Origin: Marchantia polymorpha subsp. ruderalis
Lineage: Eukaryota; Streptophyta; Marchantiopsida; Marchantiales; Marchantiaceae
Assembly: GCA_037833965.1 (NCBI GenBank)
Contig: AP031356.1
Coordinates: forward strand, 21,412,501 to 21,476,500
DNA: 64,000 nucleotides
Reading direction: 5' to 3'
The first letter of the stretch is position 1, and each line of letters begins with the position of its first letter. The notes under the pieces were generated by a model. The model saw nothing but the letters and a program-made list of their open reading frames with translations, did no database searches and had not been told where the DNA came from. This document shows, piece after piece, positions 7,965-56,275 of this stretch. The translations under genes were made by a program, and so were the position numbers.

Positions 7965-8013
7965 GTTTAACCATGTCGTTGCCCTCGGAACCAGGGCAAC
8001 GACATGGTTAAAC
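7965..8013. repeat. Perfect 20-bp palindrome with 9-base loop
   Basis: The arms GTTTAACCATGTCGTTGCCC (7965-7984) and its exact reverse complement (7994-8013) flank a 9-base loop. The surrounding DNA is AT-rich and shows no terminator-like T run, so this is not a transcription terminator. It is one of a set of short sequence-unrelated palindromes in this window. Confidence 0.95.
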
Positions 8014-15540: not shown

Positions 15541-16749
15541 CTTGATGATTCTCCCGATTGTCCTGGACCCGCGATCATCCATTTTTACTCTATTTGAGTG
15601 TACCGATTACTATTTTCAATTGCTGCTGCGGTACTGTTTTCCAAAAATGTTTAAATTCCGCACAAAAAGTGTGTTACCACAGGGCTGTTGGAGCTCTCAT
15701 ATGACAAGTGTGTCACTAGGCAAGACAAGACATTTTCGCTAGAAGCTTTTGTCGAGCAAAAAGCAGTGACGAAATTGCATGTTTAAGGACCAATGAAGAA
15801 ACACAACTTATTTCAAATCATGTCGCTGAATTGTACACCTCTGTCGTATCAAGAGCCACATGCTAGAGCCAGGAGTAGTGTCTGATTGAACTCAATACTT
15901 GCGTAAGAAGCTGTAAATGAATCGCGAATGAAAGTACTGATCACCAAATGCTTTTCATTGTATTTGAGTTAAAACACAAGTTTGGCACAAGGATACAATT
16001 CTTCCCTTGATTTACAATTTGAGTTTATCTTGGTTTACACATTGGATTAATGGACCTAAACATTTCATTTTCCTCACACCTTAATAATATTAATACAATA
16101 ATACTATGTCACATTTCCCATCCATAAACATCCACAACCCTATCAGTAGCTTTTGAAAATCAGGCCCCGCAAAGACTTCAATGCTAAAGGCAAACGTTGA
16201 TGTTCCATTCCACTGGTTTACGCTCAATGGTTTCTGTTGAAACAATCAATCAGTAATAATCACCAGGAATGCGGAAAAAGTATATGATGCGGAATAATCA
16301 ACAGGAAGTTGCAAACCTTACTATCTATAGCATGAAAGACCCTGCTGACGTTCACGAACTGTCATACTGAGACTTCGCACTTCCTTATCCTCGCTTACCG
16401 TTTCAAGTCGCCACAGGCATATATGAGGCGGAAGTATATCACTATAATATAATGGATTTACAGGAGACAGGGTCGTTCATGGCAACTAGACGAGTTCATC
16501 ACAGTTTCCTGACGTGAGTCGCAATTTTATCAGACCAAATCCAGACACTACACGCGCATTTCTGGAGAAGCGACCGGTTAATATCTCAGAGGCTTTAAAT
16601 GTCCAGGGCCTGGTTATTCATTTCAACACACATCATTCCACGAACTCAATTCAGACTCAATTCAGACTCAACACTCTCCGGCTCCCAGCCTTCGACGTAT
16701 TCTCAGCTGAGCTATCTCGGCAGACATAATTAGGACCTGGCTCGGCAAC
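15541..16749. other. Upstream region of the germin-like gene
   Basis: AT-rich DNA between the GCCGAAGGC-rich block and the germin start codon. A TTTAAAT-like stretch lies near 16593-16600, about 150 bp upstream of the ATG, and could serve as a weak TATA element. Otherwise I see only short ORFs. Confidence 0.35.
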
Positions 16750-17370
16750 ATGGCTTCGAGATCGGCTCTCGCAGTTTCGACATTCTTGTGCCTGGCGGCC
16801 TTGGCTGCACTCAGCGCACATGCAGCTGATCCGGAGGAGATCAGGGACTTCGCGCCGCCTGCCAACGGCGCCCCGCCGAACGCCAGTTACTTCACCTTCA
16901 CTGAATTGCGCGATATCGACGTGAAGCAAGGCCAGTTCGCCAACGTTAGCAACGTCAACGTGCTCAGATTTCCGGTGCTGTCGGGATTGGGCGTGGCCAA
17001 CGCGCTCCTCGTCTATCCCCCGGGCAGCGTCAACGTGCCTCACACTCACCCGCGCGGCACCGAGACCTTGTTCGTGCTGGAAGGGACTCTGGAAGTGGGT
17101 CTGATCGACACCACGCTGCCTGTACCAGTTCTCTTCACCCAGACTCTCTGCACGAATGACATCTTCGTGTTCCCTCGCGGCCTCGTCCACTTCCAGATCA
17201 ACAAGAGCAAGTACGTCGTCAGAGCCTACGCCTCCTTCAGCAGCACCAATCCCGGCCTCGTGTCCCTCCCGCGCACGCTGTTCGGGGTGCATATCGACCC
17301 CGAGGTGCTCACCAAGTCCTTCGAGGTGTCATCCGATATCATCGCCAAACTGTCAGCCGTTCAGCCGTAA
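16750..17370 (+). CDS. Germin-like protein, intact, single exon
   Basis: This is a 206-residue secreted cupin. Germin-like proteins are apoplastic, manganese-binding and usually hexameric; members have superoxide dismutase or oxalate oxidase activity. Residues 1-25 (from MASRSALAVS to SAHA) form a clear signal peptide. The cupin carries both metal-binding boxes: PPGSVNVPHTHPRGTETLFV gives His98, His100 and Glu105, and FPRGLVHFQ gives His147. The usual LSGLGVAN and LPRTLFG segments are present. The Cys pair near the mature N-terminus that forms a disulfide in many seed-plant germins is absent; the only Cys outside the signal peptide is residue 134. Length fits the family, and there is no sign of damage. 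Third positions are clearly GC-rich compared with the flanking DNA. Which enzymatic activity it has cannot be told from sequence. Confidence 0.95.
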   Translation: MASRSALAVSTFLCLAALAALSAHAADPEEIRDFAPPANGAPPNASYFTFTELRDIDVKQGQFANVSNVNVLRFPVLSGLGVANALLVYPPGSVNVPHTHPRGTETLFVLEGTLEVGLIDTTLPVPVLFTQTLCTNDIFVFPRGLVHFQINKSKYVVRAYASFSSTNPGLVSLPRTLFGVHIDPEVLTKSFEVSSDIIAKLSAVQP

Positions 17371-25617: not shown

Positions 25618-25669
25618 GGAATTTAATCTCATTTCCATCCTCGAGGGGATCGAAATGAGATTTAATTCC
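25618..25669. repeat. Perfect 18-bp palindrome
   Basis: The arms GGAATTTAATCTCATTTC (25618-25635) and its reverse complement (25652-25669) are separated by 16 bases. The spacer itself contains CCTCGAGG. It lies downstream of the terpene synthase-like remnant. Confidence 0.95.
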
Positions 25670-27075: not shown

Positions 27076-28434
27076 CTAATTCTTGGTGTGAAAAAGCTTT
27101 GTACCCTGTACAGAACTACGGATCCCCTCTACAGACCCTATAATGGCAACTAGTGTTATGAGGCCGGATATGATTCTCAAAGCCCATATCATGGTTAACT
27201 CTTTGGTAGAGGTAAGTGCCTTGCCTTTTGATTTTATATACATTGCAGTGGGGAAATAAACAGTGAGAGGGAAAAACGATATCGCTCCAATAAAACCATT
27301 GATATCGTTGAAGAAGGGCAAGGCGCTAGCTACGAGAGTGACTGCTATCACAAACAAAGTTCTAGTTATCAAGCGGAACCCAATTAGATTCTTTCTAGGC
27401 CAATTGTTGTGTACAACTCGTTCCAGAGCAGCGAAAATTGGCTGTACATAAACCTGATATGCACCAACAAGATGTATAACCACACATATATTTCCTATAG
27501 CCAAGATCCAATACGGGTTGTAGAATCCAAATCCGGTTAGAATATTACCCGGAGCATGGATTCCAAATGCCGCAAAACCCAAACAACCTACTGTTGTGTA
27601 AAACGCCGTCGTGATACTTATCCCCCATATCGTCGCCTTTTTCATCGTCACATTCTCCATTGCATATTTAGGTGGCCCTCTGACAGTGTCTTGGATTTCA
27701 ATCAGCACCATGCAGAAGGAATACGCGAACGCTATGTTGCCTAGAGCCTGAAACACGGACCAAGTCTTCTGGGCAGCAGAAAGTTGAGTTCCCCACACCG
27801 GACCCTTGGCATGTTTGTTAATTGACACTCTGGCAACGCTCAGCCCCAGTCCAATGAACGAGTATATCGCAGACATGACAGCAGCTACAATCGATACAAA
27901 CTTCAGATGACTAAAATCTGGCAACTGTGACAGGAATATCTGAATCCCACCGAACAATATCATCCACGGAATGTTGGAAACGTGACAATGAGCCTCGTGA
28001 CCATTCCTGTGGAAACATATTGCTCTCTTTACTGCAACCATACTGGTTGCACTAGTGACGGTATAGCCTATAGACGTGCATAGAAGATTAAGGTACTGAG
28101 CTATAGCGCACAAATAAACCTGTTTTTTTCCCAGATGAGAATTCACCGCATCCATGTATGTGTAGTTTCTCCTTCCCGTCACATGATGCCTGTAACAATC
28201 TGCCAACAGCGCCGAAGTATAGAATGTGGCCCATGCAAAGAAAATAAGCATGATAGAACCTACCACCCATCCTAACTGCGCTATACTCCATGGCAAACCC
28301 AAAACTCCAGACCCTATGACTGCTGTCACAACATGTGCAGTGGCGTTCAACCAGGTTCCCGTCCTTGCAGGTTTCAGATCATCATCGAACTTGCGACTAT
28401 CGTCCGCGCCCTCCGAGATCTCAGTCAAATCCAT
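27076..28434 (-). CDS. AAP-type amino acid permease, uninterrupted 452-codon frame
   Basis: This is a plasma-membrane proton-coupled amino acid importer of the AAAP/ATF family, subfamily AAP. It has 452 residues against about 475-490 in Arabidopsis AAPs. About eleven hydrophobic segments are visible. AAP signatures in order: RTGTWLNATAHVVTAVIGSG and LGLPWSIAQLGW in TM1, LLADCYRHH, GYTVTSATSMVAVKRAICFH, FGGIQIFLSQLPDFSHL, QALGNIAFAYSF, then PYWILAIGNICVVIHLVGAY and ALPFFNDINGFIGA with LTVYFPTAMYI. The ATG at 28434 is preceded directly by a good acceptor (TTCACGCAG/ATGG), so an intron in the 5' UTR is likely. The coding frame itself has no intron, whereas seed-plant AAP genes have several; it could be a retrocopy that gained a leader, or an ancestral intron-poor form. 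No damage was seen. Substrate preference is not readable. Confidence 0.93.
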   Translation of the reverse strand: MDLTEISEGADDSRKFDDDLKPARTGTWLNATAHVVTAVIGSGVLGLPWSIAQLGWVVGSIMLIFFAWATFYTSALLADCYRHHVTGRRNYTYMDAVNSHLGKKQVYLCAIAQYLNLLCTSIGYTVTSATSMVAVKRAICFHRNGHEAHCHVSNIPWMILFGGIQIFLSQLPDFSHLKFVSIVAAVMSAIYSFIGLGLSVARVSINKHAKGPVWGTQLSAAQKTWSVFQALGNIAFAYSFCMVLIEIQDTVRGPPKYAMENVTMKKATIWGISITTAFYTTVGCLGFAAFGIHAPGNILTGFGFYNPYWILAIGNICVVIHLVGAYQVYVQPIFAALERVVHNNWPRKNLIGFRLITRTLFVIAVTLVASALPFFNDINGFIGAISFFPLTVYFPTAMYIKSKGKALTSTKELTMIWALRIISGLITLVAIIGSVEGIRSSVQGTKLFHTKN

Positions 28435-29336
28435 CTGCGTGAAATTGAAAATAAAATGAATAAATTACGTGAAATTGAACGCTGGAGGTGGACGAACGCA
28501 GTCAAGTGATCTCGTGACTCCTCTCAAACTAGTAATTATGAGTGCTACTCTGCGTGTGGAAGACTTTACTGCAAACTCTTGGATGTTTTCCACTCCGCCT
28601 CCAGTAATACCAGTAATACTCCGACTTGCATCTGCGCAGACGAATTTCTCCCTGGCGCCTGTCCCGGCGCAGGCGTAGTGTAGTACTGTCTAAATCAGTG
28701 CTCACCTCTCCTCTCCCAATTCTAGGCATTTGGCTAACCTGTCCAGGGTTCACCGATCTTACCTCCAGACCTGTGAGACTTTCCTACGAGAGAGAGAATC
28801 GACATTGATGGGTCTAGCACTCTGCGAGCTACCAAAATCTCTGGATCTGCTAAGGTCAGAAGATAGTGGGGACATCAGTCCAGCTATCCATCAGTCTTGA
28901 GGGTGGCACTTGCTTCTGACTGGCAACTTTTATCATGTCTGGTCTTTCCTCAAATCAAGCCGTTTCTAGAGCCTTGACCTGTATCTTTTGTAATACGAGT
29001 ACTCTACAGAGATGCTATGGAGTTATGCATGGGACTTGCCGGAGGACCAATCTGCTCACGGTTTCATACAGCCTTTTGCTGTGTCGACAGGCTCTATCCC
29101 AAGCCCACGTTACATTACGGTCTTCATGTGTCGCCCCTGACTACTTGTTTGAACGTGGATAAATGGTAAACCTCACTGTCGGAAATAAAAATAAGAGCTT
29201 TACCGATCAGGTTGGTGGATTCGAAGGGGCTCATATTCAACTCCCTGAGAGTTGTGGTAATGGTATTTTTTGTACCAATACATGCTATAATAATAAGGGC
29301 AAGCGTCTAGCCCCCGGCCCTCTTAAATTGAAGCAT

Positions 29337-29373
29337 TTTTGGCCGTGATTAATCCGATTAATCACGGCCAAAA
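29337..29373. repeat. Perfect 17-bp palindrome, 3-base loop
   Basis: The arms 29337-29353 (TTTTGGCCGTGATTAAT) and 29357-29373 pair exactly around CCG. The very tight loop would extrude readily as a hairpin. Confidence 0.95.
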
Positions 29374-29437: not shown

Positions 29438-29491
29438 AGTCTGCAGCCATTTCAGCGTCGAATCCATACGAAGGTGAAATGGCTGCAGACT
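29438..29491. repeat. Perfect 17-bp palindrome, 20-base loop
   Basis: The arms 29438-29454 (AGTCTGCAGCCATTTCA) and 29475-29491 pair exactly. It lies just before the part of this dispersed repeat that matches 21507 onward; the copy near 21480-21510 has no matching palindrome by eye. Confidence 0.9.
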
Positions 29492-30509: not shown

Positions 30510-30729
30510 CGACAGCACAAAACAAGGTGTACACGTATTTAATAAATCCAATTTATGCGCAGTCCAAGCCTCCTGAACTCCCAACCTCAAGCTCACCTTC
30601 CAGCAAAGAAGGAACAGGAGGAATAATCGGTCCTGTGGATATGACAAATTGACAAGTGTCAAGTATTTCAATTCTTTGGGAGGGTACTTGGAGTGAGCAG
30701 CGGCTGCCGCCCAAAGACGATAGCTTGAT

Positions 30730-30789
30730 CATCTTAGCGCCGCCCGAACCCTCGGTCTGAGAGGCGGCGGTTGGGGCGGCGCTAAGATG
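30730..30789. repeat. Perfect 16-bp palindrome, 28-base loop
   Basis: The arms CATCTTAGCGCCGCCC (30730-30745) and its reverse complement (30774-30789). The stem is GC-rich, and the loop contains a second short GGCGGCGG-like element. Confidence 0.92.
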
Positions 30790-31709
30790 AATCACGAGAT
30801 GAATTGCTGATTGAGCTCGGGCTGTGTTATCCACTCATTATCTGAACTTACTCCCGGGCACATTGTGATCATTGCACACCATGGGTCGGAACATGGAGGT
30901 CTTGCGGCGGAACTCTCCAGAAACGAAAGTCATGGAAATCGCGAAAAGGAGGGTCCGGAATTTAAAACATGAATTCGATGCGAACCCAATATTTCGCCAT
31001 CACGAGGTCGTCGTATTCTTCATCTTAGACGAATACGGCATCACTTAATCCTGCGGCATAAAGGTGGGTCTGCCTTCTTCCACTTCCCATGGATCATCAC
31101 GAGAAATCCGCCATGATAGCTCCTGCAGTTGAACTCCCCGTCCGGAGAAAACCAATGCATGGTGAGTAAACGCACAGCAGATCCGTTGATGGAAAAAAGG
31201 TATCAAATACATTCGTCCATCAAGTCATATTACCTACCCGAACGAATTATACCACGTTGAGTTATATCGTGATGATCAGCCTAAAGTCTTTGACAAGAAG
31301 ACAAAGATGTATTAGGTTGTATCCGTGCAGACTCAGTACGAAGTTCTAAATGCTACAAAAACTGCTGTGGTGCAACGCTGCTGGCTAGCCACCATCGTTG
31401 CGTGGGGAAATGGACTGACAGATAGACCGATCTAGAAAGCACTTCAAGCTGCTTCTGGGAGGAGTTCTACTCCCAGATAAGCGCAGATCTTGGATTTTCG
31501 ACTTGACTACCGGCGCATGGTCGTGCCTTCCTCGTCCGTTTCCTGCTAAGGTGAAACTTGGGTGGAAAAGAGGGAAAAGTGTAGCTGTATTGGCTCATAT
31601 GGAATTGTACATAACTGATGAAGTCTCTCTTGATATTTGATTTACAGGAGGAGAAGTGGAAGGCCTTGTTAGAGAAATTCGAGAAGGAGAAGCCAGGCTC
31701 TCTTCAGAT

Positions 31710-33051: not shown

Positions 33052-33160
33052 ATGTGGACGAGCCGGCGAATGATGGTCGTAGACGTGATGTCCATGCTGG
33101 CATCTGTGGCAATTTGGTCGTTGCTTTTGGGAGGGGCTGCAGCCTCCTCTCCTCCTGCAG
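33052..33160 (+). CDS. Possible first exon encoding a signal peptide
   Basis: From ATG 33052 the frame reads a basic start (MWTSRR), then a strongly hydrophobic segment with LASVAIWSLLLGGAAASS, and meets a good donor (CCTGCAG/GTGAGTGA) after Gly at 33160, in phase 1. This is what the first exon of a secreted or membrane protein looks like. The following 1.4 kb is a duplicated block, and I could not find a matching next exon. The donor context is kept in the second copy near 38795, but the signal-peptide part is not. Possibly a truncated gene. Confidence 0.3.
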
Positions 33161-34560
33161 GTGAGTGACGTTCGATACAAGGATAGCTGGTGCAGTCGGA
33201 GTCAATACGAGAGTCCCTCACAATATGAAATAGTCTTGAACAATTTGATTGATGATCTTGACGTGCTCGTTGCTGGAGTTGCAGAGGATCTTCGGGCCAC
33301 CTCCGAGTTCGGCCTGTTCGGGCCTCAGGCCTGTTGTTCTCATTCCTCTGCATCAATATTGGGACATGGTGTCCTCGTGCGAAACCCGCTCGGGTGACTC
33401 TGAACGACTGCGAGATGGAATGTGATTTTGAACTTGGTATTCCATAATTTTATATTTTATAAAGACGTGCTTGTGAAATATAAAATTATTTCACAAGCAC
33501 GTCTTTCCTCGACCCAGAATCTATCTGAAATCTGGTATTATATGCTTGTGGTGTCATGCGTACACCTGAGTCAGCACTTACTGCTATGGAATCGACTCAA
33601 CGAGCGAAATTGCTGGGCATTTTCTGTACAGCATTGGAACCGTCGCCTGGAAGTGGATTTGGTTTCAATCTCTTCGTTTGGGTTCATCGTTGCATGCATT
33701 GGAGAATTCATTTCTTCTAGGTACAGCAGTTTGGCCGATTGAAAACTCCTGGTCTGATGTTTATTTATCACGGGAGACCTCAAAGAGCACCAACATACCT
33801 GCGAACGTAGATATCTTGTTTGGAGTGGTTTGTGTTCTGGCTTTTCGTTATGCAGCCATTACGCGACCAATATGATGTCCTGCTCAGTGCGCTGAGATTT
33901 TTGAAAGTCATTGGTTCAGGTACGGAAGAAGATCAGTCAGCATGTATCTCACGAAGCCGACGACGGATGGGCTGATGGCGACTGCGCTCCCTTAACTCGA
34001 TCATCTGCAAGGTAGGTACGTTGAACTCAGAAGACGTGTACCCGGGCTCCGACCAAAAGAGATTCTCCTGTCGAGGTACTACGAGATTGTCTGGAATTGT
34101 TGATGTTGTTGAATATTTGTAGCCGCATGTACAAGCTCAATCTGTAAGGATCCTAGAATTGGACGAGACCACCCTGCAAAATCTTCGTTCTTTCGCGGTG
34201 TAATTTGAGCAATGGCATTGACTCAGAACTTCAATAAGTTAAGATTCTTGAGTATTTCACTTTCAAAATTTTTTGTTGAATCTTCGGTTTATCTTCATTG
34301 CATACAGATAAGATGGAATTATCAAGACATTCAGTAATTTACCTAGGTTTGGCTGACATTACTAGTACGATTGAAAGTAAGAAAGGAAATACAGAAGAGA
34401 AGGGTCATCACTGCCCACAACTCGTTTTACAAATCCGAGTGTCCTAGCTATCAACGTGCTGGACTTCCTTACGACTCATGAGATATAATCAGCTCTTGAA
34501 AGTGACGAGATTGTTAACCAATGAATGATTATATGTTCATACAAATGTATGAAATACAAT
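33143..34560. repeat. Duplicated block X, copy 1
   Basis: This aligns in the same orientation with 38781-40185, high identity by eye (around 90%). Shared landmarks include GGTGAGTGAC near the left end, AGTCAATACGAGAGTCCCT, a frame reading NSWSD, SRETSKSTNIPANVDIL in both copies (33678-33875 and about 39300-39497), and CGATTGAAAGTAA near the right end. The shared ORF ends in a hydrophobic segment and is closed by the same stop, but no protein family was recognised. Copy 1 differs by a palindrome at 33461-33506. Confidence 0.9.
33461..33506. repeat. Perfect 19-bp palindrome, present only in copy 1
   Basis: The arms AAAGACGTGCTTGTGAAAT (33461-33479) and its reverse complement (33488-33506) are separated by 8 bases. 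The corresponding place in copy 2 (about 39095-39118) has only the right arm (ATCACAAGCGCCTCTTTCC), so the left arm was added in copy 1 as an inverted copy of its own neighbour. Confidence 0.95.
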
Positions 34561-35093
34561 CATGGCTTGCAGCTTGTTTTAGAAGGTGGGCGGAAACGCG
34601 AAAGCTTAATTCGAACGTCGAGTGCGAGGGATTGCAATCCTGATTATTTTATTTACGAGGAAGGTGAGCGGCAGACCGAGTTAGTGGCGCTCGGACTCAT
34701 TGCGCTAGTCGATATTGCGGACTTCGCTGAGTGAAGGAGTCGAGCGGACGAGGCTCGGTGAAGCGAGGCTTTCAAAGCCAGGAGTGAACGTGAGGGCATG
34801 CGAGAGGTACGGGGATGTTGTGAGTGGGAGGGGCTTTATGATCATCTTGAAGAGTGAACGAACCGGCTTAGCTCTAAGGGAAATGGTGCATAGACCAGAA
34901 AGCATGCACCCGTCCACAGTCCTGCCTCGAGGTGCGACTTTTTGACCGAGCTGCGAAGCATGCACATGGAGGAGTCTCCTGCCTTGTGGATCGTCTCTTC
35001 CTCATAAAGCAACGCTAAATTCGCTCAATTCCTTCCTATTCCGACTCGGAGCTAAGTATAACCACGCTGCCCGCTGCATCGTCCGCTCCGATC

Positions 35094-37110: not shown

Positions 37111-37182
37111 CGAATCAGTACGCAGAATTTTGAAGCGGATTGTGGAGAAACAATCCGCTTCGAAACTCTGCATACTGATCCG
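37111..37182. repeat. 33-bp palindrome with four transitions
   Basis: The arms 37111-37143 and 37150-37182 pair over 33 positions with four mismatches, separated by a 6-base loop. All four differences are transitions (C/T or G/A), the pattern expected from deamination of methylated cytosine after an originally perfect palindrome formed. Confidence 0.92.
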
Positions 37183-38288: not shown

Positions 38289-38780
38289 AAGAGTTGGTCA
38301 CTTTGCAGGAAAGTTTGCAAAATATTCAGCACGTGGTTGCTAAGCAGCCCAAGAAACCTCTTAGTTCGCATAGAGTATGTGATTTCAAGCATGTCAAGAA
38401 AAGCGCAAAGAAAAGTAACAAGAGTCGAACACTTGCCCAACCAAGTGAATCACGAACTTGAGTTCAAAGCGGATTGTGGAGACTAGATTAGAGACGGAAC
38501 TTATCAATTATGAACTTTTATCATAACCTATGGACGGAATGCGGGCACTTCTGAGATCGTAAAATGAACTTCTGAAATAACATTCCAACTTGCAAACATT
38601 TGAAACACCTGGTTTGGCAAGTGCTCTACTCTTCTTATTTTTCAACGCACTCTTCTTTACCTGCTTGAAGGCACATGCTCTGTGTGGACTAAATGGTTTC
38701 TTGCGCTGCTTAGTATGAAGATGTTGAATATTTTGGTACATCCGATTGTGAGGACTAGATTAGAGAAGCAGATTCTAGAG

Positions 38781-40474
38781 ACTCCTCTCCTCATGCAGGT
38801 GAGTGACTTTCGGTACAAGGATAGCTGGTTCAGTCGGAGTCAATACGAGAGTCCCTTAGAATATGAAACAGTCTTGAACTAGTTGATTGCTGATCTTGCC
38901 GTGCTTGTTGCTGGAGATGCAGAGGATCTTCGGCCTCCGAGTTCGGCAAGTTTGCTACAGGGTCTGCAGTGTCCAGGACTGGTCCAGTTGCGCTGCTATT
39001 CTCTCATTCCTCCGCACCAATATTGGAACATGGTGTCCTCGGTGACTCTGAACGACTGCGAGATGGAATGTGATTTTGAACTTGGTATCCATGATTTTAT
39101 ATATCACAAGCGCCTCTTTCCTCGACCCATCTATCTGAAATTTGGTACTATATGCTGTACTAGATGCTTGTGGTGGCATGCGAAAACCTGAGTCAGTACT
39201 GACTGCTATGGAATCGACTGAATGAGCGAAATTGATCGGCATTTTCTGTACAGCAGTGGAACCGTTGCCTGGAAGTGGAGTTTGTTTCAAGCTCTTCGTT
39301 TGGGTTCATCGTTACATGCATTGGAGCATTCATTTCTTCTAGGTACAGCAGTTTGGCCGATTCCAAACTCCTGGTCTGATATTTGTTTATCACGGGAGAC
39401 CTCAAAGAGCACCAACATACCTGCAAACGTAGATATCTTGCTTGGAGTGGTTTGTGTTCTGGCTTTTTGTTATGCAGCACTAACGCGACCAATATGATGT
39501 CATGCTCTGTGCGCTGAGATTGTTGAATGTCATTGGATCAGGTACTGAAGAAGATCAGTCAGCATGTATCTCGCGAAACCGACTACGGATGGGCTGATGG
39601 CGACTGCGCTCCCTTAACTCGATAATCTGGTAGGTACGTCGAACTCAGAAGACCTGTACCCGGGCTCCGTCCAAAAGAGATTCTCCTGTCGAGGTACTAC
39701 GAGATTGTCTGGAATTGTTGATGTTGTTGAATATTTGTAGCCGCATGTACAAGCTCAATCTATAAGGATCCTAGAAGGGACGAGACTACCCTGCAAATTC
39801 TTCTTTCTTTCGCGGTGTAATTTGAGCAATGGCATTGACTCAGAACTTGACTTCAACTTCAATAAGGTAAAATTCTTAAGTTTTTCACTTTCAGATTTTG
39901 TTGGTTGAATCTTCGGTTTATCTTCATTGCATATAGATAAGAATTATCAAGACATTCAGTTATTTACCTAGGTTTGGCTGACATTACTTGTACGATTGAA
40001 AGTAATAAAGGAAATAAAGAAGAGAAGTGTCATCACTGCCCACAATTCGATATACAAATCCGAGTGTCCTAGCTGTCAACGTGCTGGACTTCCTTACATC
40101 TCATGAGTTTTAATCAGCTCTTGAAAGTGACGAGATTGTTTACCATGAATGATAATATGTTCATACAAATGTATGAAAATACAATTATTCAGTGAACCAT
40201 ACAATGCATACTTTCTGGCCTTTGTGTCAGCGGGCTTACCTTCAGTATTCTTGATTTCACACCCTATGTTCGAACTTCCAGACAGACACCACAACATTCT
40301 ACTCCAGAACTTTAGCACTCCACATCAAGAAGTAGATTCTGAACCCTTGCTGCCATGAGCTGCAAAGTAAAAGTGTCCACACCCTCCCGGGTCCACTATA
40401 CGATACAGCCCTCCTTGTTCTTGAACAAAGAGTTACGGTGACTAATTACGTGGAAGAAAGTCTTGCTTCTATTC
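38781..40474. repeat. Duplicated blocks X and Y, copy 2 (contiguous)
   Basis: Copy 2 of X (38781-40185) is followed within six bases by copy 2 of Y (40192-40474). Here the palindrome seen in copy 1 at 33461 is missing and the 1.9-kb segment is absent. Copy 2 keeps the 91-codon frame at 39222-39497. Confidence 0.9.
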
Positions 40475-40491
40475 TACTTCTACTTCATTTC

Positions 40492-40586
40492 ATGATCCTA
40501 AGGTGGACAATTCCACCTTAGGATCATCCTCTGAACATGACGATATGGCTCGTCCTTCTTTGCTCAATTATAGCAAAGAAGGACGA
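40492..40586. repeat. Two adjacent perfect palindromes (16 and 15 bp)
   Basis: The first pair is 40492-40507 and 40512-40527 (ATGATCCTAAGGTGGA and its complement, 4-base loop). The second is 40550-40564 and 40572-40586 (TCGTCCTTCTTTGCT and its complement, 7-base loop). They sit just outside the right edge of duplicated block Y copy 2 and share no sequence with each other. Confidence 0.95.
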
Positions 40587-43922: not shown

Positions 43923-46900
43923 TTACGGGGCCATTATTTTGCCAATTCTTTGTACAGCATCCATAGGTATCTCCCGTCCTGGTATGTGCACCTTCAAAAG
44001 ACTGGAATACCTGTTATACAAAAAGCGTTCAAAAGTGAGAGAGCATCATTCCCAGCGACGACAAGGTCCAATGGGGGGCACTCTAGCAAACTAACAAAGA
44101 TCTGTTAGACGCATCATTATGTCCGGCCGTCAAGATCCTCTGACGCTTATCATCCCACTTCAAGACTTCAGACATTTGAGAGTAGGAGATAGATTCAAGT
44201 TACTTACTCTGAGAAGGAAAACATGGAATGATGCTCTTGGACAAAGGCAACGAGAGCCTGCAAAAAGGTGCCAATGTAACTATCAGTCAAACGCACAAAT
44301 ACTTCGATAATCTTGAAGAACCTGATTCGGCTCATCAACTGCTATCAACCAGGACATCGAAGGACTAAACAACGTCGTATCTATGTTTCTATCCCACAAA
44401 AAGATGCACTGTCCATTTTCCTCATCTACCGTAAAGCCTAGCAACTTAACAATGTGATGAGAGAGCCACTTGGTTGTTTCTTGTGAGAACCAAATCTACA
44501 AAGATGCTTTACATTATATAGTATATACCTCGAAAGGAAGATTGAGTAGATCATAGTAGGTCCGGACGCGATCCAGTCGTTCAATTACGGAGTTAACACT
44601 ACCTCCAAGTGACGCAAGTGACTGTCATCACGACATTATCAAAATCAGCAACAGAGGAACTTCTGAAATGCAGGTGTCCAATGAATAGAATAAGTTGATC
44701 GTATAGATGGGAAAGGGAAGGACCTGTTGCACAGCTGTGCAGTTTCTGCATATTTGTCGAATTCCGAGCATGTTGACAGCGTTCATTTCATTCAAAGACT
44801 GCAAATATCACACCGTTTAGTTCGCTCGGAGTAAGCAAAAGCATGACTAGTATGTGCACAATCCACGAGTGCCGACTGTTCTTTAGATGAAAACACTGAC
44901 ATGATTTTCAAGACAATCTTTGACACTAGGCAAGAGTTCACATTTGAACCATCCAGTGTGTTCCACTATTCTTGTGTCGAGTAGTACTAAAATGAGCAAT
45001 TTCAGACTTGAATTGTACCTTTATAAAGGTTGCAGCTGCTATGCTACAAATTCCCCCGAATATATAACCGCGCTTGAGAGAGGGCAAGTATGGTGCAATT
45101 TCTTCGTCTCTTCTAGTAATCTGGAAGTCCCAACAGATTGGAAGTCAGAAATATATACGGTGAAGAGCATGTATTTATAACCATGACAAAGATGATGAGC
45201 ATAAATGATCCATATAAGTTTGTATGAACTTCCATCCACATTACTATATGCACCTGAAACCTCCGAACTTACAATTACTTTCAGGTGCACGAAGAACGAC
45301 CACGAGGAATTAGCCGAATTCTTCCGTATTCTACGACCAGAATCAAAACACACAAGATGAAAGGCAGCAAGTTTCGCTCGAATATAACCCTCCGAGCAAC
45401 ATTCTGCACAATGTCGATATTTTGATCCCGTTTATATCACCCACCTGAGTCGTGAAAGCAATTATAAAATCCTCGGGTTCCTCCGCGTCCTGGTCACACA
45501 CGTACACTTTCCCAATACCCTACAACAAGAAGAGAAAAACCGTAAGTTAAATCCGCAAGCAAAAGTTGAATCATATATGCTGAAGTCTTTCAACACATTA
45601 CGACACTCTTCGTGAGGATTGCATTGACCACCTTCAGCTCTGTCCTCCAATAGATCAAGTCTTCCAAGTTTCGATGAGACGACCAGAGCAGAATCAGAAA
45701 ATCGAATATACATACCGCAAGGTGAGAGATAGCTTGCAGTTGCATTTCCACACGCAAAGTGCGAAGACATTCGCTGGAGAGGGCATGGAATTTGTCAGCA
45801 AGGGCACCCAAACCAGCAGTAAGAGCACTGCTTGTGCGTCGATGATGGCGGCGGACTTGATGCTGGTCTTTCCTCCTCCTCTCAGTAAGTCCTCGTGATT
45901 GTTGCTGTCCGAGTCTATCATCACATTTGGTGTACTCTCATAAGTAAAACGGACGACGACTGACTCAAAATATATTGAATGATAAAATATCCAAAGAAAT
46001 CAACCTTCATGATTCCGAACAGAGACACACATAACCGCAACCACTGAAATGAAACAAATAAATCAGCATTTTTCGAAGGTATGACCAGAAGAGTAAAGAC
46101 GGTATCATTAACAAGTATAATCATACTCAGCCACCATCAGTCAGGCTAACTGTGATAAGCCTAGCCCTGATATATCCAAGGGCATCTATGTGAAGGGTAT
46201 GACCACCCCCTAAACATAGAAAAACTTCAACCTCTTGTGACTAAGAGAATCTCTTTTGTGAGGTAAAGAATAGGCAAACATGACTACATATAAAAAGCAA
46301 ACTTACTCTTGGACAGAATCTGAGAGAAAATCCAATGTGTCACTTAAGGCCGCAAGTAAGACAAGTTTTGAATTATCTTTGATAAGTTGTTCCTGCACAT
46401 ACCATCTCCCATTAGCTGTTCACATCTCCATTAAGGGTCAAAAAAAGGAAACACTAGATCCTCGATCCAAAAGAGGAAACCCCGACTGCGGCTTTAAGAT
46501 GGAACAGAAAAAACTCAAATACTTTGATCAGTAAATACTTTGAAGAACCACCTGCTTGATGGGACGCAAGCTGAGTAACAAATTATTCAGTTCCATTTCC
46601 ACTTCAAGACCTTCAGCATCCAACGGACCATCCAGAGAAACCTTCTGGCCCAGTTGACTCAAAAATCCCGCCTCTAAAACAGAGTTGGCAGGCTCTTGCT
46701 TCATCAAACCTGAGACATCAGGCCTCCCAATAACATCTGAACTGAAACTGCCAAGAACGGCCTGCGTAACAGTGAAGAAACGGTTAGATACTGACAGCGG
46801 TGAACAAAGAGTCAATGACAGATTAGCAGGCCATAATTATAAAGCACTGCATGTTATCCGGTGTAAAAAAAGTCTCCAGAAAGCACAGCGCACGGTATGA

Positions 46901-49900
46901 AAACCTTCGTAGGTGAGATTGCATAATAACCACAGTTCTCAGAGTTCTTGTGATGCCTTACAAAATTCATCGGACAACTAAAGGCATTGTAAGAAGTCGA
47001 TGGTTATTCCGCACAATAACCATCCACTTCTTCCAATGGATCTAGTTGTCCGATCAATTCTAGAAGGCATCACAAGAACTCTGAGATATACTACAGCTGC
47101 TTGCTTCATGCCTTACGTAATTCATCGAAGGACTAAAGGCATTGAAAGCAGTGGATGGTTAGTCACGATAAACATTCACTACTTGCAATGCCTTTAGTTC
47201 TCCGATGAAACCTGTAAGGCATCACAAGAACTCAGATATGTTCCAGCTGCTTGCTTCATGACTTATATAATTCATTGGAGAACAAAAGGCATTGAAAGCT
47301 GTTGATGGTTATTCACAATAACCATCCACTACTTGCAATGCCTTCAGTTATCCAATGAAACCTATAAGGCATCACAAGAAATCTGAGATATGTTACAGCT
47401 GCTTGCTTCATGCCTCTGCTATCACTATTTCCCATAAATACTTCAGTTCAAACTTTCTTCCCAAAATAGAGGAATTTAAATAGCAAGGGCAGCAGGCTGG
47501 TATTCTACTTCTCTTTTTTTCAGCCATAAAGCCAAGCAGATTGATGCCAACAACGATTGTGTGAAAAAGGACAGATTAGCATGTCATGTAAAGCACTGCA
47601 TGTTTCAGTACTTCTCTTTCCCTATGATCTCTTAGTACGCTCCATATCACATCCTCAGTTAACCATTCTTTTCACAATCACGACTATAGCTGTAGACAGA
47701 AGAAGTCTATCTAGTATAATCATCCGACCAAACTGCAAAATTGAGAGGTAATGTTACGTTGGGGAAAGTCTAGGGCCATCTTAGGTTTTCATGAGAAGAC
47801 ACATCACTTTGAGTAAGCTTTCATGGAAGAATGTCTCTGCTAAGAGATTAGCGATTCTTATATTTACCTCAGTGTATCCCGCACGACATCGTTCCAGTGT
47901 GCGTTCAAGAAGGGTCTGCACTAGCTCCAATATTTCTCCTGCGTACATAGGCATCGCTTGGGCCCAACCTAAAACCTGCCATTGAAAACCTTTGAGGCCA
48001 TCTAGTACTCGGAAATACATATTTAGTAATGGAACAATCGTAGAGTCCACTGCCTCATCACTAGTTTTCCACCAAAATTCAGAGCTTAAGGTGAAACCAT
48101 CATTTTAAATGTAATGAGGTATACTAAAAAAATCTCAGGTCAACATGACTTACGCAAATCTCTTGTTAACAAGAGATATGGTTACATGATAATCTATTAT
48201 TTGCTTTTCTCAAACATAATATTGTCAGTTTGAAATTTATTGGCTCAGATTTGAGGTATGTCTATCCTCCACTTCGTCTGGTTTTGTAAAAATCACTGTC
48301 GAAGCATGAAATGATCAAACGCTCAGGCATACCTCCTTCACAAGTTCATTTGCTGCTAGAGGGCCCTGTAAAACTGGCCTTCCCTTCTCGACAGTGGGTT
48401 CATACAAAGTTCCTGGATGTGATCTTAAACGGAATGCAGCAGGACCTGTTTGCGAAAAAAATCGAAATAAATAACAATGATTAGGATATAGAAACAAACT
48501 AAAATGCACATCGACAGATTTCATGCACATAGAGAATAGATGAAGATCATTTGTTTACAACATAGTCCACAAATTTTCCTGCTTAGAGTAGAAGAGACAT
48601 TTATTTATAAGAGCAGTTTTTCCAAAGGAGAGAACCTAAACAACTCCTCTTGGATACACAGCTCTACTCAGATAGAAACAAAATATTTTTATGGATGCAT
48701 ATGGTTGACCGAAAATACCATTGGACGTTCATCAATTATTGCATGCAAGGTAAGGGCCACTACGTAGCTCTTATCTCCTCGATAGTGCGAACCAAATTTC
48801 AAAAATAAGGAAAACGAGCACCAAGAACTGAGTACTTACTAGCAAGAGCATCAGCTACCCGTGTTCGATAGTCCACACGCACAATGGGAAGAAACTGGTC
48901 TTTCACAAAATTCTCAATAAAATTTTGTAGCCCGTCATTTCTGCTCAGGAAAAGCCATATATTTTATTATTAAGTATTGAAACGCTGATTGAAAGAGGTT
49001 TTCCAGCGTAAGGAGGAATATGATACAAAAAAGGGTATACCATTGAATAGAGCAAATGTTCCTTTTCGCGAGAGCCGAGTAGATAAAACATATCGGGAAA
49101 AAACTATACATATTCGCAAAAAAATTGGATCGTACCCAAGTTGCAAGTACTTTGGAGGAAGCAATGACATCACTTTATCCGTGTACTGCAAACACCCCAT
49201 GGTAAGTAAAATGGTCGTGTTTTATCGAGTTAACACCAACAAGGCGCATGAGATTAAAAGTATATGACATCTTCAGGACAAGCAAGCAAAGACTGCTCTA
49301 AAAGCCTGTGCGATGCAAGGAAACGTGTATTACAAGTATTATTAAAAAAATTAGAAATCAAATTTTCTGTTTGACATGTAAGCTCTAAGGCTCACTTAGC
49401 CTGTCACGCAAGCCAATTACAAAAGTTGCGGTACCTGAAGGACTGGACGATAAACTGCTGAAGTGAGGTAGATGCCCCTCTCCGGAAGCACCGAGCCTGT
49501 CCCATATCCTTCCTGAGCAGCTGCTGTGATCCGCCTGTTCCTACCACCTTGACTTCCCATGATTTGGTTCATGCGATCATTTCCGGCTATGCAAAACATC
49601 AAGGATCGATAAATAGTGGGTGGATAATAGATAACGTACAGTCTCGGATTCTGCTGCTCTTCCTAGAGCAATTAGACCATACAGTTTTACGACCAAAACA
49701 AAACAACGACATGCAACCACCATCATCACACGCGCCTCGAATAATCTTGGGCTTAAAGAAACTACAACTTATCATATTTGGAACTTAAAGAGGACAGATT
49801 CTTCGATACCTGGTAGAGTAAGGATTGTATCAGTGAACCTAAACGCAAATGAGAGGCCCTCCTCAGACCCTCCTCTCCTGAAATTAATCCGAGCATATTA

Positions 49901-52900
49901 TTAACATAAAATGCCACAACGATAACCTAGAGACAAGGACAAGAAAAAACCAAGTCTCATGCTCACATTGCATCATCCGGGGGCGTTTTGCTCGCTAGCC
50001 TTGCAGTCTGAACAGCTGCATCAGCTGAAGCGGCATCAGGTGTTGCACGCAGAATATCGCATATAAGTTGCTGGCATTCGCTCTGCAATAATTTACAAAC
50101 AGTGTACGAAACATCGTATTTTAGAGAAAAGAAAAATTATATCTATTTCAAAAACCAGAAAAGATATTGAAGAGATTTTCTGGTTATTTTTCAAAATTTT
50201 ACCATGCTCTCAAGTGGCCTAAATTGTCTGAATCCAAAATGTGTTCCAAGTTTCCGTGATTTGTGGAATTACTGCGTAATGAGAGGTTTTAGGCAAATTT
50301 CCTCTAAAAATATCACACCCGAAGGTTGTGGTAGTGGAACAGACAGTGAAGTGTGTTCAAATGAACTATTTCTCCTGTAACAAATGTCTGCTGAACCAGC
50401 GGGACTAGTGTAAGGTTACAAATATAGGGAGAGTACACAGCACAGCATGAATCTAAAACTCAACCCAAAACGTTTGAAAAGATCCTACAACATGTCATGT
50501 CATTTGAAGAGGAAGACCTGGAGAACAGTCAACGCGAACACCAGACTGTATCCTCCTGTAGCCCTGTTGCTGTCCGAATCACCACCCCACTGCATATCGC
50601 CATTGACCTTCTCCGAAAAACTAGCAGCATCTGAAACACTAGCCTTGGCTTCCATTGCCTCCCCAACAACGACATGGTTTTCTGCAGTGTTCAGACAAAA
50701 AGAAACAAGCCCAAATCACTCATCCAGACTGATCAAGCTAAGAAAATTTAGAATGAAAGAATGGATTAGAAAGTTCACATACAACCCAACCGGGTTTTAT
50801 TACCAACTGTTGAAACATACAAGACTGGACAGCCTCAAATAGAGAAAACATAAGAAAATTCACGATAGGATAGCGAGGTTGAAAGTTCGAGGATTCACCT
50901 AATATACGCAATGCCAAAGAAAGAATAGACTGGAGGAGTTCCTGAGCAGCAGTCTGGGCCTTGCTCATTGGACCAACTAGGGGAGTAACGGGTCCAGAAG
51001 TGCCGTTTGCCTTAACCACGATATTCCCATTCTTTGAATCCTTCTGCTTTAGCGCAGGTCCAACAACGCCGTTTGGTTTGGATATGAGGGCAATACCAGC
51101 AGTCACTTTCGAGACTTGATCAACTCGAGGTCTAGACGCCTCAACTGCAGCAGCCCGAGCTTTAATTTCTGCAGTAATAAGCTCATGCAGGGTTGGTCTG
51201 AGCCTCTGACTGTAAGACATGCAGAGGAATAATCAGAATCCGAGAATAAAGGGACCCTCGCGAATCATCAACTCGGTTTGAAAAGAACATATCCATAACA
51301 GAGAAGTCAAAGAGGAATACGAAAAAATAGAAATAGTGAATACAGCAGGATCCATAGTCTTCATTTCAGGCGAGAACGTGTGTACTTCACCTTATGATAG
51401 CACCTGCAGCTGCTATTTTTCCAAGTAAGGCAAGGCACTCAACCATGGTTTGAAGGTACTTGACGGATGCTGTACCATCACTTTTTGTCATGGTCTCCTG
51501 CATATTTATGAATTCAAACGTTATCTATTAGTCAAACGAAGCAGGCGCATCTTGTGTAAATGCTTCAGATATCCATTCTAATCATAACAACTGGACTGTC
51601 ACAGTAGCAATTTAGAAGACTTACAGTAAATTCATTTGGGATAGAATCTGCCAGCCAAGGAGGAAGAACCCTAGTGGGCTTCTTGCCCTCCTTATTTCCA
51701 GACTCATCATGTCCATTTGCAGCAGCTAAGGAGTTCCCATCGACACTTCCTCCATTAGCAACACTCGCATCGTCTTCTCTGCCATCCACGGATGACCTGG
51801 AAAACATTGAATATGCAAGTGGATTTTCAAGTTTTGTAACATACACTTCTTCCGTGCAGATTCATACAAAAAACATTTATATTTTCCTATATGTGAAAAT
51901 GTCGGTAAGTTTTCAATTATTTTGGACAAAAGAATAACCGTTACTTACCCATCCACTGAACCACCTTTCCGAGCCTCTAACACTCGGTCAAGGCCAGCAG
52001 CTTGAAAATCATGTCTCCTCATTGTCCGCGTTCTGCGCGACATAGACAGAAGATTACCCGTCGGTGCAACCGTAGCAGCAGTGATGTTCGATATGTCGTC
52101 ATCTTTATCTGGGATGTCGGTAAGATTGTAGCTGCGGAAAAGAGACCACGTCATAAAATTAGCTTACATTGTTTCCAAGGTTAATCACATATTCTGCTTC
52201 AGTGAAAGTACGCTGCGACGGTCAAACCAATGGCATTACATCGAATATTAAACCCAAAGAATAATGATAAATACAATTTAGGGGTTTCGTATAGATGTCA
52301 TACCTGTATTCACCTTTATTGTATACATGAAGATGCAACTCCTCCATGACCTTAAAAAAAAGGACACCACGAAGCTTCGATAGATCTGCACGCACATCTT
52401 GCAGGGCACCAACCTATCCGAAGATAGTAAACAAAATATTTCCCTATCAGTCACACCCTCGTTATGGAACGACAGACTGAGCGATTTTTGTAATAAAAGC
52501 ATCTAATGTTGCTTTCATAATAGACGCTTGCCAAAACATAGTTGACAATAGTATACTAGATCAGAACCTGTAATAGCATACATCCATGTACACGGTTGGT
52601 GTGATAACGTGTCAAGCGCTAGTAAGCCTACTGTAGTATATAGAAATATCAAGGTATTAAACATTCTTCAAGTGATTCAAGTGAACTGGTGATTGGACCT
52701 GCTTAAGTAGAGCAACACTTTGCTATACTTAAGCAGGTCCAATCACCAGTTCATTTTGAAAACAATTCTGGACTTCTCGAGTGGACCCCAAAACAAGTAG
52801 ATCATACTTCGGAGTTACTGGCGCTTAATTTCCGGTAGTTTATTAAAATAGTAGAAAGTGTCCCATGGTCTTAGCGTCCCCCACATTCGGAAGTTTCTGC

Positions 52901-55562
52901 AACCTTGACAACCATCGATCCCACCGTTCACTGATAACCATGAAAACAGTTTCATGTGGTTTTCGGTGTGGCACTCATACACTTTTAAACAATTTGTTCA
53001 GATCAACTCCATATTTATGTATTATTGTACAATGTCCACCAGTATGCTCAAGCACATAAATACTAATTATAAAATCTTACCAATGTTATTTACAGTGGAT
53101 TTACGTCTTCCTTTTAAGTATAGCTTGAATAATCAAGAGGTACCTTGTCTTTCTTCTTCACATCATCTACAGTGGTGTCCCAGATCTGAGTTCAGCATCA
53201 TGGCTCACACCAACACGTGAAGACAACTGCCCCGTTAGAAGTGCACCAATTCACCGTATCGTTTCATGATATACAGACCGTTTTAGTGTGGTATCAATTT
53301 AGTTCCGAAAAAGTGGTGATACAGATTTTTATAAACCTGGTGTTGGAGATTAGGCAGTTAATAAGAGGAGATCTTTGAATTGAAGACTTCACGATTCGAG
53401 ATATGGTTAATAAGATGTTCTTTTGGAGTAGCCAACATAAAAACTGACTGATGTTCATCTTGTTAGCAGTACTCATTTTAAGACATTGTGACTTGCCGAT
53501 TGTTTCAGGCATCACAACCACTTGCTGAACGTTTATTCAGTGGGTAACATAGAGAGTACGCAAACAAAGTGTTGAGCTTCTTACTGATTGGATACCCTCC
53601 CTCTCCAGCATGCTTATAGACTGAATGTAGAGCTGCACCGCAGCATAATACTTCTTTTCTGCGATCAGCTTCTCAATTTGCGATGGAACCTGTACCACCA
53701 GAAAAAAACTTTGATAAGAAATCATCATCAAGAAGTGCTCAAAGATTTTGCAAATGTAATAAACGGTTATGACTGTGGAAGCCACTAAGTTACAAAAAGT
53801 TTGCTCATTTACTACATCCAGCGAACAAATTGCTGATTCTACCGAGTCTTCCTTTGCGACATTCGGTACTCAGCAGCAGACAAGAAACGGAGGTACAATC
53901 CAAGCAACGAAATGTCAGGGATGTCATAAAAGTTGAATATGTTCCTCACACGGTCGACAAAAGAGATAAGTACCAAGTTTACTTCACCTTGGCAACTCTG
54001 TCAATTTGGTCAAGCAGAGAAATAACATGCCGGAGGGTGACTGAACGACACCACTGCTGATGTAATTGTTTGTGTCGTGCTCCTAGCAAGTTCCTTGCCT
54101 CTCCTAGATTGGTTTTCAATCCGCTGATGCTCGAGGCTGACTCGCTGAACAGGCGCAATATCTGTATGCAGAAGAGTTGCTTAAGTACTTGGCCAAAACA
54201 TGGAGAATTAAAGGCAACGTGTGCAATCCCCTGCTAATCAGATTCTTCATGCAATAGTTGAATCCAAGCACCTACCTGAGAATAATTATGCGTTGCTTTG
54301 TTGAATCCATTGTGATATCCCCGAACCACATCATCTACCAACTCCTCAATTTCATCCCGTTGTTTTTGCAAAGTGCGAACAGCTCCCTCCGGATCTTGTG
54401 ACGTGAGAACTTGGACCACATGCGGAAGTGAATCAAATCGAGCCTGCTTCCAAACCTCATCAATTCCTTCAAGCTCAGCTCTCACGACCTGAAACATGAG
54501 AAATATAAAAAGGAAACCAGTTCGAATCAGAACTAGCAGTTGTATAAAAACGAAATAAAATAATGGTAATTGAGGTAGAAGAAGCATTGTCTATTATGAG
54601 GCATACTGAGAGGAGCAGCATGCCTCATAAGAACTAGGCCAACAAAGGTTACAAGCAACGATGGGCATTAATACAAATACACGCCTCTAACACATTTTAG
54701 TGCCATAACGTTACGACCTTTTATGTAACCAATTTCATGAAAGAATATGGATGCACGAAAGCAAATGACACAAGGTGTAAAACAGTCTCCAGAAAACACA
54801 GCGCACGGTATGAAACGGGGTCATTTAGTACATGTGGAAGAAAATCATCGTAGGTGAGATTGCATAATAACCACAGTTACAGTTCTCAGAGTTCTTCTGG
54901 TGCCTTACAAAATTCATCGGACAACTAAAGGCATTGTAAGCAGTCGATGGTTATTCCGCACAATAACCATCCACTTCTTGCAATGGATTTAGTTGTCCGA
55001 TCAATTCTAGAAGGCATCACAAGAACTCTGAGTTATACTACAGCTGCTTGCTTCATGCCTTACGTAATTCATCGAAGGACTTAAGGCATTGAAAGCAGTG
55101 GATGGTTAGTCACAATAAACATTCACTACTTGCAATGCCTTTAGTTCTCCGATGAAACCTGTAAGGCATCACAAGAACTCTGAAATATGTTACAGCTGCT
55201 TGCTTCATGCCTCTGCTATCACTATTTCCCATGAATACTTCAATTCCAACTTTCTTCCCAAAATAGAGGTATTTAAAATAGCAAGGGCAGCAGGCTGGTA
55301 ATTTACTTTTCTAATCTTCAGCCATGAAGTCAAGCAGATTGATGCCAACAACGATTGTGTGAAAGAGGACATATTTACGAAAGATCTTCCGATTATTATT
55401 CATGCACTCGCAGTGGATGCATTACAAAACTGCGGTGACTGTTAACTGAATGTGAGAACAGGAAGTAGGCCAGCTTTGACCTTCAGCACCAAAAGCAGAT
55501 ATCTAAAGCTGGAAGGCAAGTAAACGTACATCCCAATCCACTGATGACGACGGCTCCGCCAT
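43923..55562 (-). CDS. SEC8: Exocyst complex component SEC8, complete, 26 exons
   Basis: SEC8 is a subunit of the octameric exocyst that tethers secretory vesicles at the plasma membrane. Exons (first to last): 55562-55530, 54488-54276, 54161-53988, 53689-53585, 52413-52304, 52131-51949, 51796-51625, 51497-51391, 51209-50899, 50681-50518, 50082-49967, 49877-49810, 49586-49435, 49185-49136, 48940-48840, 48445-48333, 47975-47868, 46761-46552, 46392-46307, 45914-45716, 45519-45445, 45120-45019, 44798-44724, 44621-44529, 44257-44208, 44010-43923. Every junction is GT-AG and all phases agree, giving 1,085 residues against about 1,053 in Arabidopsis. Hallmarks: ARFDSLPHVVQVLTS and FNKATHNYSQ near the N-terminus, then SVTLRHVISLLDQI, QKYY-like AEKKYYAAVQLYIQS, ENHVVVGE, TVEKGRPVLQGPL, LGWAQAMPMY, LRVEMQLQAI and LLKVHIPGREIP at the end. 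Single intact gene; introns 1 and 17 carry hairpin arrays. Exon edges were read by eye. Confidence 0.95.
46860..47573. repeat. Stem-loop array A (three hairpins) in SEC8 intron 17
   Basis: Three tandem inverted units lie at 46940-47083 (144 bp), 47108-47222 (115 bp) and 47258-47372 (115 bp). Each pairs nearly end to end around a 5-7 base loop, with arms of 54-70 bp and scattered mismatches. Loop-side sequence reads ATGGTTATT/AATAACCAT; the stems share AAGGCATTG and CAATGCCTTTAG. The tail to 47573 is also part of the repeat, since it recurs with array B. A roughly 35-bp direct repeat (AAAGCACTGCATGTT core) brackets the array at 46820-46854 and 47574-47606. This could be a cluster of inverted-repeat microRNA precursors or an array of MITEs. 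Confidence 0.9.
52682..52753. repeat. 34-bp palindrome with one mismatch in a SEC8 intron
   Basis: The arms 52682-52715 and 52720-52753 pair over 34 bases with a single mismatch and a 4-base loop; the first 28 pairs are perfect (starting TGAACTGGTGATTGGACC). It lies in the intron between exons 4 and 5. It is the longest near-perfect palindrome in the window. Confidence 0.95.
54774..55372. repeat. Stem-loop array B (two hairpins) in SEC8 intron 1
   Basis: This is the second copy of the array, with hairpins at 54887-55030 (144 bp) and 55055-55169 (115 bp). They are about 96-98% identical to the first two hairpins of array A, and the left leader and right tail are also shared. The third hairpin of A is missing. 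B has about 25 extra bases in the leader. It is in the same orientation as A, 8 kb away inside the same gene. Confidence 0.9.
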
Positions 55563-56275
55563 GCTGTAGTCGGCAGACACCTAATTCCCAAATTCCTCGC
55601 CACTTCGTATCATTCAATTGTATTTGACTTCAGTCAACTTTATTTACAAAAATCTGCTGTATCAAACGAATCTTCAAATTATGAATATTGATTCTCAAGC
55701 AAGTAGAGCAGAAAAATGCGACGTATCAATGTTGTTCTGGTGAAATTGTGCTCGATGAACTCCCGCCTAAGTTAAAGGAAATACTGATTCCCAGTTAGCT
55801 CTGAATGCGAAACACAATATCCTTCACAAATATCTCACTAGTCATTAAACCCGTCCAAACCCTGCACTCATATCGTCCCATATAGTCCTCTCCTCCATCC
55901 AACTCTGCACTAACCCGAACATTCACCGCCGCAACTTCAAGTCGACAAACGAAGCGTATCAAAAGTATGCACCTGCAACAACGCCGGAGCGGCAAAAGAG
56001 TTCGCAGCGTGCTCCTCAATCCACCAGCTTCTGGTCCTAATCAAGATCCGCCCGTTCCAAATCTCTATCTCAACCACTGACCTCAATCGCCCTGCTTCCC
56101 GGCCTCCTGGCCCGCCCACCCGCTTCCCTCCCTCCCTCTACGCTGTGCTCCCAGAATCATTCGCCCGAGACGATGATCCTGCTCGACAGATCGACAAGGT
56201 CCTCCTCGACCACTACACCACCTCTATCAACACTAGGCCCACAGCGCCACCCCTGCCTCGATTATCCCGTCGACG
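55563..56275. promoter_or_regulatory. Upstream region of SEC8 (possible shared promoter)
   Basis: About 700 bp separate the SEC8 start codon from the next plus-strand ATG-led ORF at 56276. The part near SEC8 is AT-rich; 55900-56275 is pyrimidine-rich. I see no TATA box in a credible place, which is common for housekeeping genes such as exocyst subunits. Confidence 0.35.

Follow-up and report, generated by a model that had tools for sequence, protein, structure and literature searches.

Similar intronic hairpins are already known in plants. In rice, the precursor of osa-miR1428e is described as containing two stem-loops, and the same account gives ten further, dispersed loci, in which conservation extends beyond the stem-loop and one of which is intronic to a coding gene, together with a cloned small RNA that needs OsDCL1 (PMC2607281). 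The 16 intronic pre-miRNAs of rice reported in PMC3661559 fall into 7 clusters, most of which mix families. In Marchantia polymorpha, 51 of the 95 pre-miRNAs in genes with a known protein or motif are given as intronic (PMC9291395), and MITEs have been tied to the origin of plant miRNAs (PMC10004981; PMC3237417).

Here, we describe two hairpin arrays in introns of the SEC8 gene of Marchantia polymorpha subsp. ruderalis, within a stretch of 64,000 nucleotides (64 kb) that was analysed as a whole and is called the window below. Array A, with three hairpins, occupies one intron of the gene and array B, with two, occupies intron 1; they share the same orientation, as a sequence-only reading of this DNA had proposed. 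As at osa-miR1428d/e, where there are two, homologous stem-loops follow one another in tandem within one locus; the other loci in that account have single stem-loops, whereas SEC8 carries two arrays in one host gene (PMC2607281). The rice intronic clusters (PMC3661559) also have several hairpins per intron, but these are mostly of mixed families, whereas the SEC8 units are homologous to one another. Both rice systems come with small-RNA data (a cloned species for osa-miR1428, reads for the clusters), whereas the SEC8 hairpins are predicted from sequence. MITE-derived miRNA loci (PMC10004981; PMC3237417) resemble the SEC8 arrays in having inverted-repeat hairpins in or near genes as possible sources of small RNAs, but SEC8 offers no convincing MITE ends or target-site duplications. 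In the papers found by general literature searches, no gene was described as having homologous arrays in two of its introns.

SEC8 is encoded on the minus strand, and both arrays lie within its introns (Table 1). The Sec8_N domain (PF04048) matched the ORFs at 54237-54590 and 53982-54233, and we take the remaining exons, named by eye from the ORF list, to be those of SEC8. When one of the exon ORFs was searched against the PDB, an unrelated enzyme was matched weakly in two entries, which were set aside. Intron limits were worked out from splice sites between exon-like sequence. The intron that hosts array A has the donor CACTGAG/GTAAAT and the acceptor TTACGCAG/GCC, and the peptides that flank it, RAGYTE and AVLGSF, join in frame as judged by eye from the ORF translations. 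Elsewhere in the window, a single 462-aa open frame on the minus strand (27076-28464) matches the amino acid transporter family PF01490 (E=5.9e-104), and the ORF at 16711-17370 on the plus strand presumably encodes a germin-like protein.

Table 1. Hairpin arrays, copied blocks and host introns of SEC8, in window coordinates.
Feature	Position	Strand	Details
SEC8 intron hosting array A	46762-47867	minus	GT-AG ends
Block A	46860-47577		leader, three hairpins, tail; BLAST and MAFFT against block B
Array A	46937-47372		three tandem hairpins
Hairpin A1	46937-47086		72-nt arms, 88% complementary, with a loop of 6 nt
Hairpin A2	47108-47222		54-nt arms, 81% complementary
Hairpin A3	47258-47372		56-nt arms, 80% complementary; no counterpart in array B
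Tandem repeat of array A	46953-47415	+	TRF period 150, 3.0 copies, then start of a further unit (ATGCCT)
SEC8 intron 1, hosting array B	54489-55529	minus	GT-AG ends
Block B	54774-55375		leader, two hairpins, tail; BLAST and MAFFT against block A
Array B	54885-55169		two tandem hairpins, oriented as array A
Hairpin B1	54885-55032		71-nt arms, 85% complementary
Hairpin B2	55055-55169		54-nt arms, 80% complementary; counterpart of A2
Tandem repeat of array B	54901-55212		TRF period 152, 2.0 copies
First SEC8 exon	55530-55562	minus	33 nt, ATG at 55562

The hairpins had been put at 115-144 bp from sequence inspection; the 115-nt units agree with that range, but hairpin 1, at 150 nt, lies above it. 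A1 is the only unit of array A whose outer arms pair with each other (CTCAGAGTTCTTGTG). Compared with 100 dinucleotide-preserving shuffles per strand and region, folding z-scores reached -16.1 on the plus and -18.2 on the minus strand for 46860-47420, and -14.2 and -15.0, respectively, for 54840-55215; on each strand of each array, 0 of the 100 shuffles was as stable as the real sequence. When folding energy was scanned along the window in 150-nt segments (step 50, n=1277, better strand scored), array segments at 46951, 54901 and 47101 ranked 1st, 3rd and 6th, and the 2nd, 4th and 5th ranks fell to places outside the arrays.

The hairpins are internal to a longer copied block, and the earlier observation that a leader and a tail had been copied along with them is borne out by the alignment of blocks A and B. 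Across the whole blocks, 26 of 560 positions differ (4.6%). Aligned segment by segment, hairpin 1 differs at 6/150 positions (96.0% identical), hairpin 2 at 2/115 (98.3% identical), the linker at 0/21, the rest of the last unit at 1/43, the leader at 6/78 and the tail at 14/162. Divergence between the two arms of a hairpin is 12.5-20.4%; as had been noted by eye, matching hairpins (put at about 96-98% identity) are closer to each other than are the two arms of one hairpin. Relative to block A, the leader of block B is longer by 28 + 6 bases, and 150 bases of one unit are missing from block B; single-base gaps occur once in the leader and once in the tail. The changes between A and B comprise 14 transitions and 12 transversions. 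Eight further pairs of repeats in the window have ratios between 0.61 and 2.2, so this mutation spectrum cannot tell the hypotheses apart. At or next to each end of block A there is a copy of a 42-bp direct repeat (length approximate; 46814-46855 and 47567-47604, 81% identical). Its divergence exceeds that of the A/B copy, which makes it too old to be a recent target-site duplication.

Other repeats occur in the window. Two direct repeats of 1.4 kb (33141-34563 and 38779-40188) show 103 differences over 1355 aligned positions. The gene region of the arrays also contains a palindrome of 78 bp (52679-52756) that is unrelated to them and 90% self-complementary, possibly a separate MITE-like hairpin. 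Short palindromes lie at 7965-8013, 25618-25669, 29337-29373, 29438-29491, 30729-30790, 33444-33506, 37111-37182 and 40492-40527, and self-comparison of the window at E 1e-4 revealed no relation between them and the arrays.

The 5' side of the units suggests how the array grew. In units 2 and 3, the outer 5' arm is replaced by the sequence that follows the hairpin (CTACAGCTGCTTGCTTC or a close variant), and the end of array A has this same post-hairpin sequence followed by ATGCCT. An exact ATGCCT direct repeat is present at both ends of array A (46953-46958 and 47410-47415), and a tandem duplication between two such sites would account for the 5'-side pattern of units 2 and 3. Thus, the units probably multiplied at this microhomology. 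Between A1 and A2 there are 26 differences in 150 positions, and between A2 and A3 there are 19 in 148; because the latter divergence (12.8%) exceeds that of the blocks (4.6%), the three units look older than the copying of the block. A2 and A3 were therefore probably separate before arrays A and B split, and one unit has probably been lost from array B, an argument that presumes similar rates in A3 and elsewhere.

Hairpin B2 is the counterpart of A2. Among the 21 columns at which A2 and A3 differ, B2 agrees with A2 at 17 and with A3 at 4, and it shares none of the 8 states that are found in A3 alone. At all 4 A3-like columns (three changes) A2 alone departs from A1, which is most simply explained by changes private to A2; a chimeric B2 that switches from A2 to A3 was rejected for the same reason. 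Unequal exchange, which had been offered for three versus two units, is a plausible cause, with the divergence values pointing to B as the array that lost one, but the 21 columns reveal no readable recombination junction in B2.

What the arrays are can be read in several ways. Our best explanation, which we hold tentatively, is that they are a locally duplicated palindromic non-coding intron repeat of plant SEC8 with a possible small-RNA potential. Local copying is supported by the fact that both blocks found in the 64 kb belong to SEC8. Some properties of the stems count against a plain repeat and have to be weighed with a different idea, that the arrays are a young intronic MIRNA cluster, in which stem-loops of a pri-miRNA, within the SEC8 pre-mRNA or an independent transcript, are selected and yield 21-22-nt miRNAs. 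Between A and B, the hairpins are more conserved than their flanks (8/265 differences against 20/240 in leader and tail, Fisher P=0.011; with the block edges trimmed, which drops two leader differences and one tail difference, 8/265 against 17/231, P=0.038), a contrast that is suggestive of constraint, or of gene conversion between repeats. The SEC8-sense (minus) strand is the better folder in both arrays, and G-U-type mismatches number 14 on this strand and 8 on the other over 307 positions of five related hairpins, which is a lean and not a formal test. Columns changed on both sides of a stem number 0-4 against 0-2.2 expected in the 7 hairpin comparisons (54 inner columns). They exceed expectation in 4 of the 7; Watson-Crick to Watson-Crick changes affect three distinct columns (9, 19 and 23), and both doubly changed columns between A2 and A3 retain Watson-Crick pairing. 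None of the 7 comparisons reaches a significant excess, however, the lowest P being 0.14. In length, near end-to-end pairing and small loops the hairpins fit plant precursors; judged on whole arms (54-72 nt, 80-88% complementary), all five stem-loops could accommodate a 21-22-nt duplex with few mismatches, and tandem and intronic precursors have precedents in rice (PMC2607281; PMC3661559). Searches for known families point the other way. No Rfam family reached its gathering score in the window. With relaxed thresholds, 19 matches were listed for 46500-55800 at E up to 5, all below cut-off, the best being mir-34 (E=5.5e-05, 35.5 bits against a cut-off of 53.4). We take the families concerned to be mostly animal ones; the plant families among the matches to the arrays (MIR7125, MIR444 and MIR6146) scored far below their cut-offs, and we regard the relaxed matches as the general likeness of long hairpins. 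A new MIRNA family need not resemble a described precursor family. The arm cores tried in RNA letters matched no mature sequence in the literature searched; a search in DNA letters brought up two papers, one on a virus detection assay and one on cell culture, which we attribute to chance. As a possible target within SEC8 we considered the best match of array A outside the arrays, which comprises 15 bases (44355-44369, E=0.16). A MIRNA cluster, one of the two identities offered by the sequence-only reading, is thus not established, with Rfam, the literature and covariation all failing to lend it support, and we consider it unlikely. An extension of it, in which transcription of SEC8 yields related miRNAs from two introns and selected arrays are copied as blocks, making a spreading intronic small-RNA cluster, seems to us improbable.

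Many long inverted repeats of plant introns are MITEs, and a transposing element of MITE-like or foldback type, whose mobile unit would be either the block or the single hairpin, is a further candidate. The ends of array B carry an exact 7-bp direct repeat, GTTACAG, and another, ACGAAAG, lies close to the ends of block B; other short palindromes are present in the window. The scan revealed no such repeat at array A, however, where GTTACAG is absent from the 5' side, and the same search finds an exact 7-bp direct repeat at 53 of 300 random position pairs of the window, so that these candidate target-site duplications, seen at B alone, are to be read against that chance rate. No terminal inverted repeats were found at the ends of the copied unit, by eye and among the listed candidates; the hairpins are internal, with the leader and tail outside them, although in an older element the termini could have been the two arms of one hairpin. 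Self-comparison found no third copy of the block in the 64-kb window. Exact array patterns had 0 matches in bacterial/archaeal and viral collections, which tells little about plant DNA. With neither convincing target-site duplications or terminal inverted repeats nor a third copy in the window, the unusual MITE moving as an array that had been suggested for this locus is not established, and we regard a transposing element as doubtful.

Under the preferred reading, that of a locally duplicated intron repeat, a founder palindrome of the hairpin 1 type would first have undergone tandem duplication. Two ATGCCT sites probably served as the junction, located where the inner arm starts and immediately past the downstream flank of the hairpin, and a further duplication would have given three units. 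A block of about 600-700 bp, leader and tail included, would then have been copied within the same gene and in the same orientation, presumably from A to B, and array B would have lost a unit after this copying. In the primary transcript of SEC8, the units would fold into hairpins of 115-150 nt. Dicer-like enzymes could cut these into small RNAs, most likely a mixed siRNA-like population with hypothetical targets, while the stems give no clear sign of selection.

Should these hairpins give rise to small RNAs, SEC8 would capture a plant MIRNA family at an early stage, its tandem duplication and its copying both legible in one gene. If they do not, the locus would be a clear example of palindromic intron repeats that grow and move by local recombination, and such repeats can pass for MIRNA genes or MITEs.
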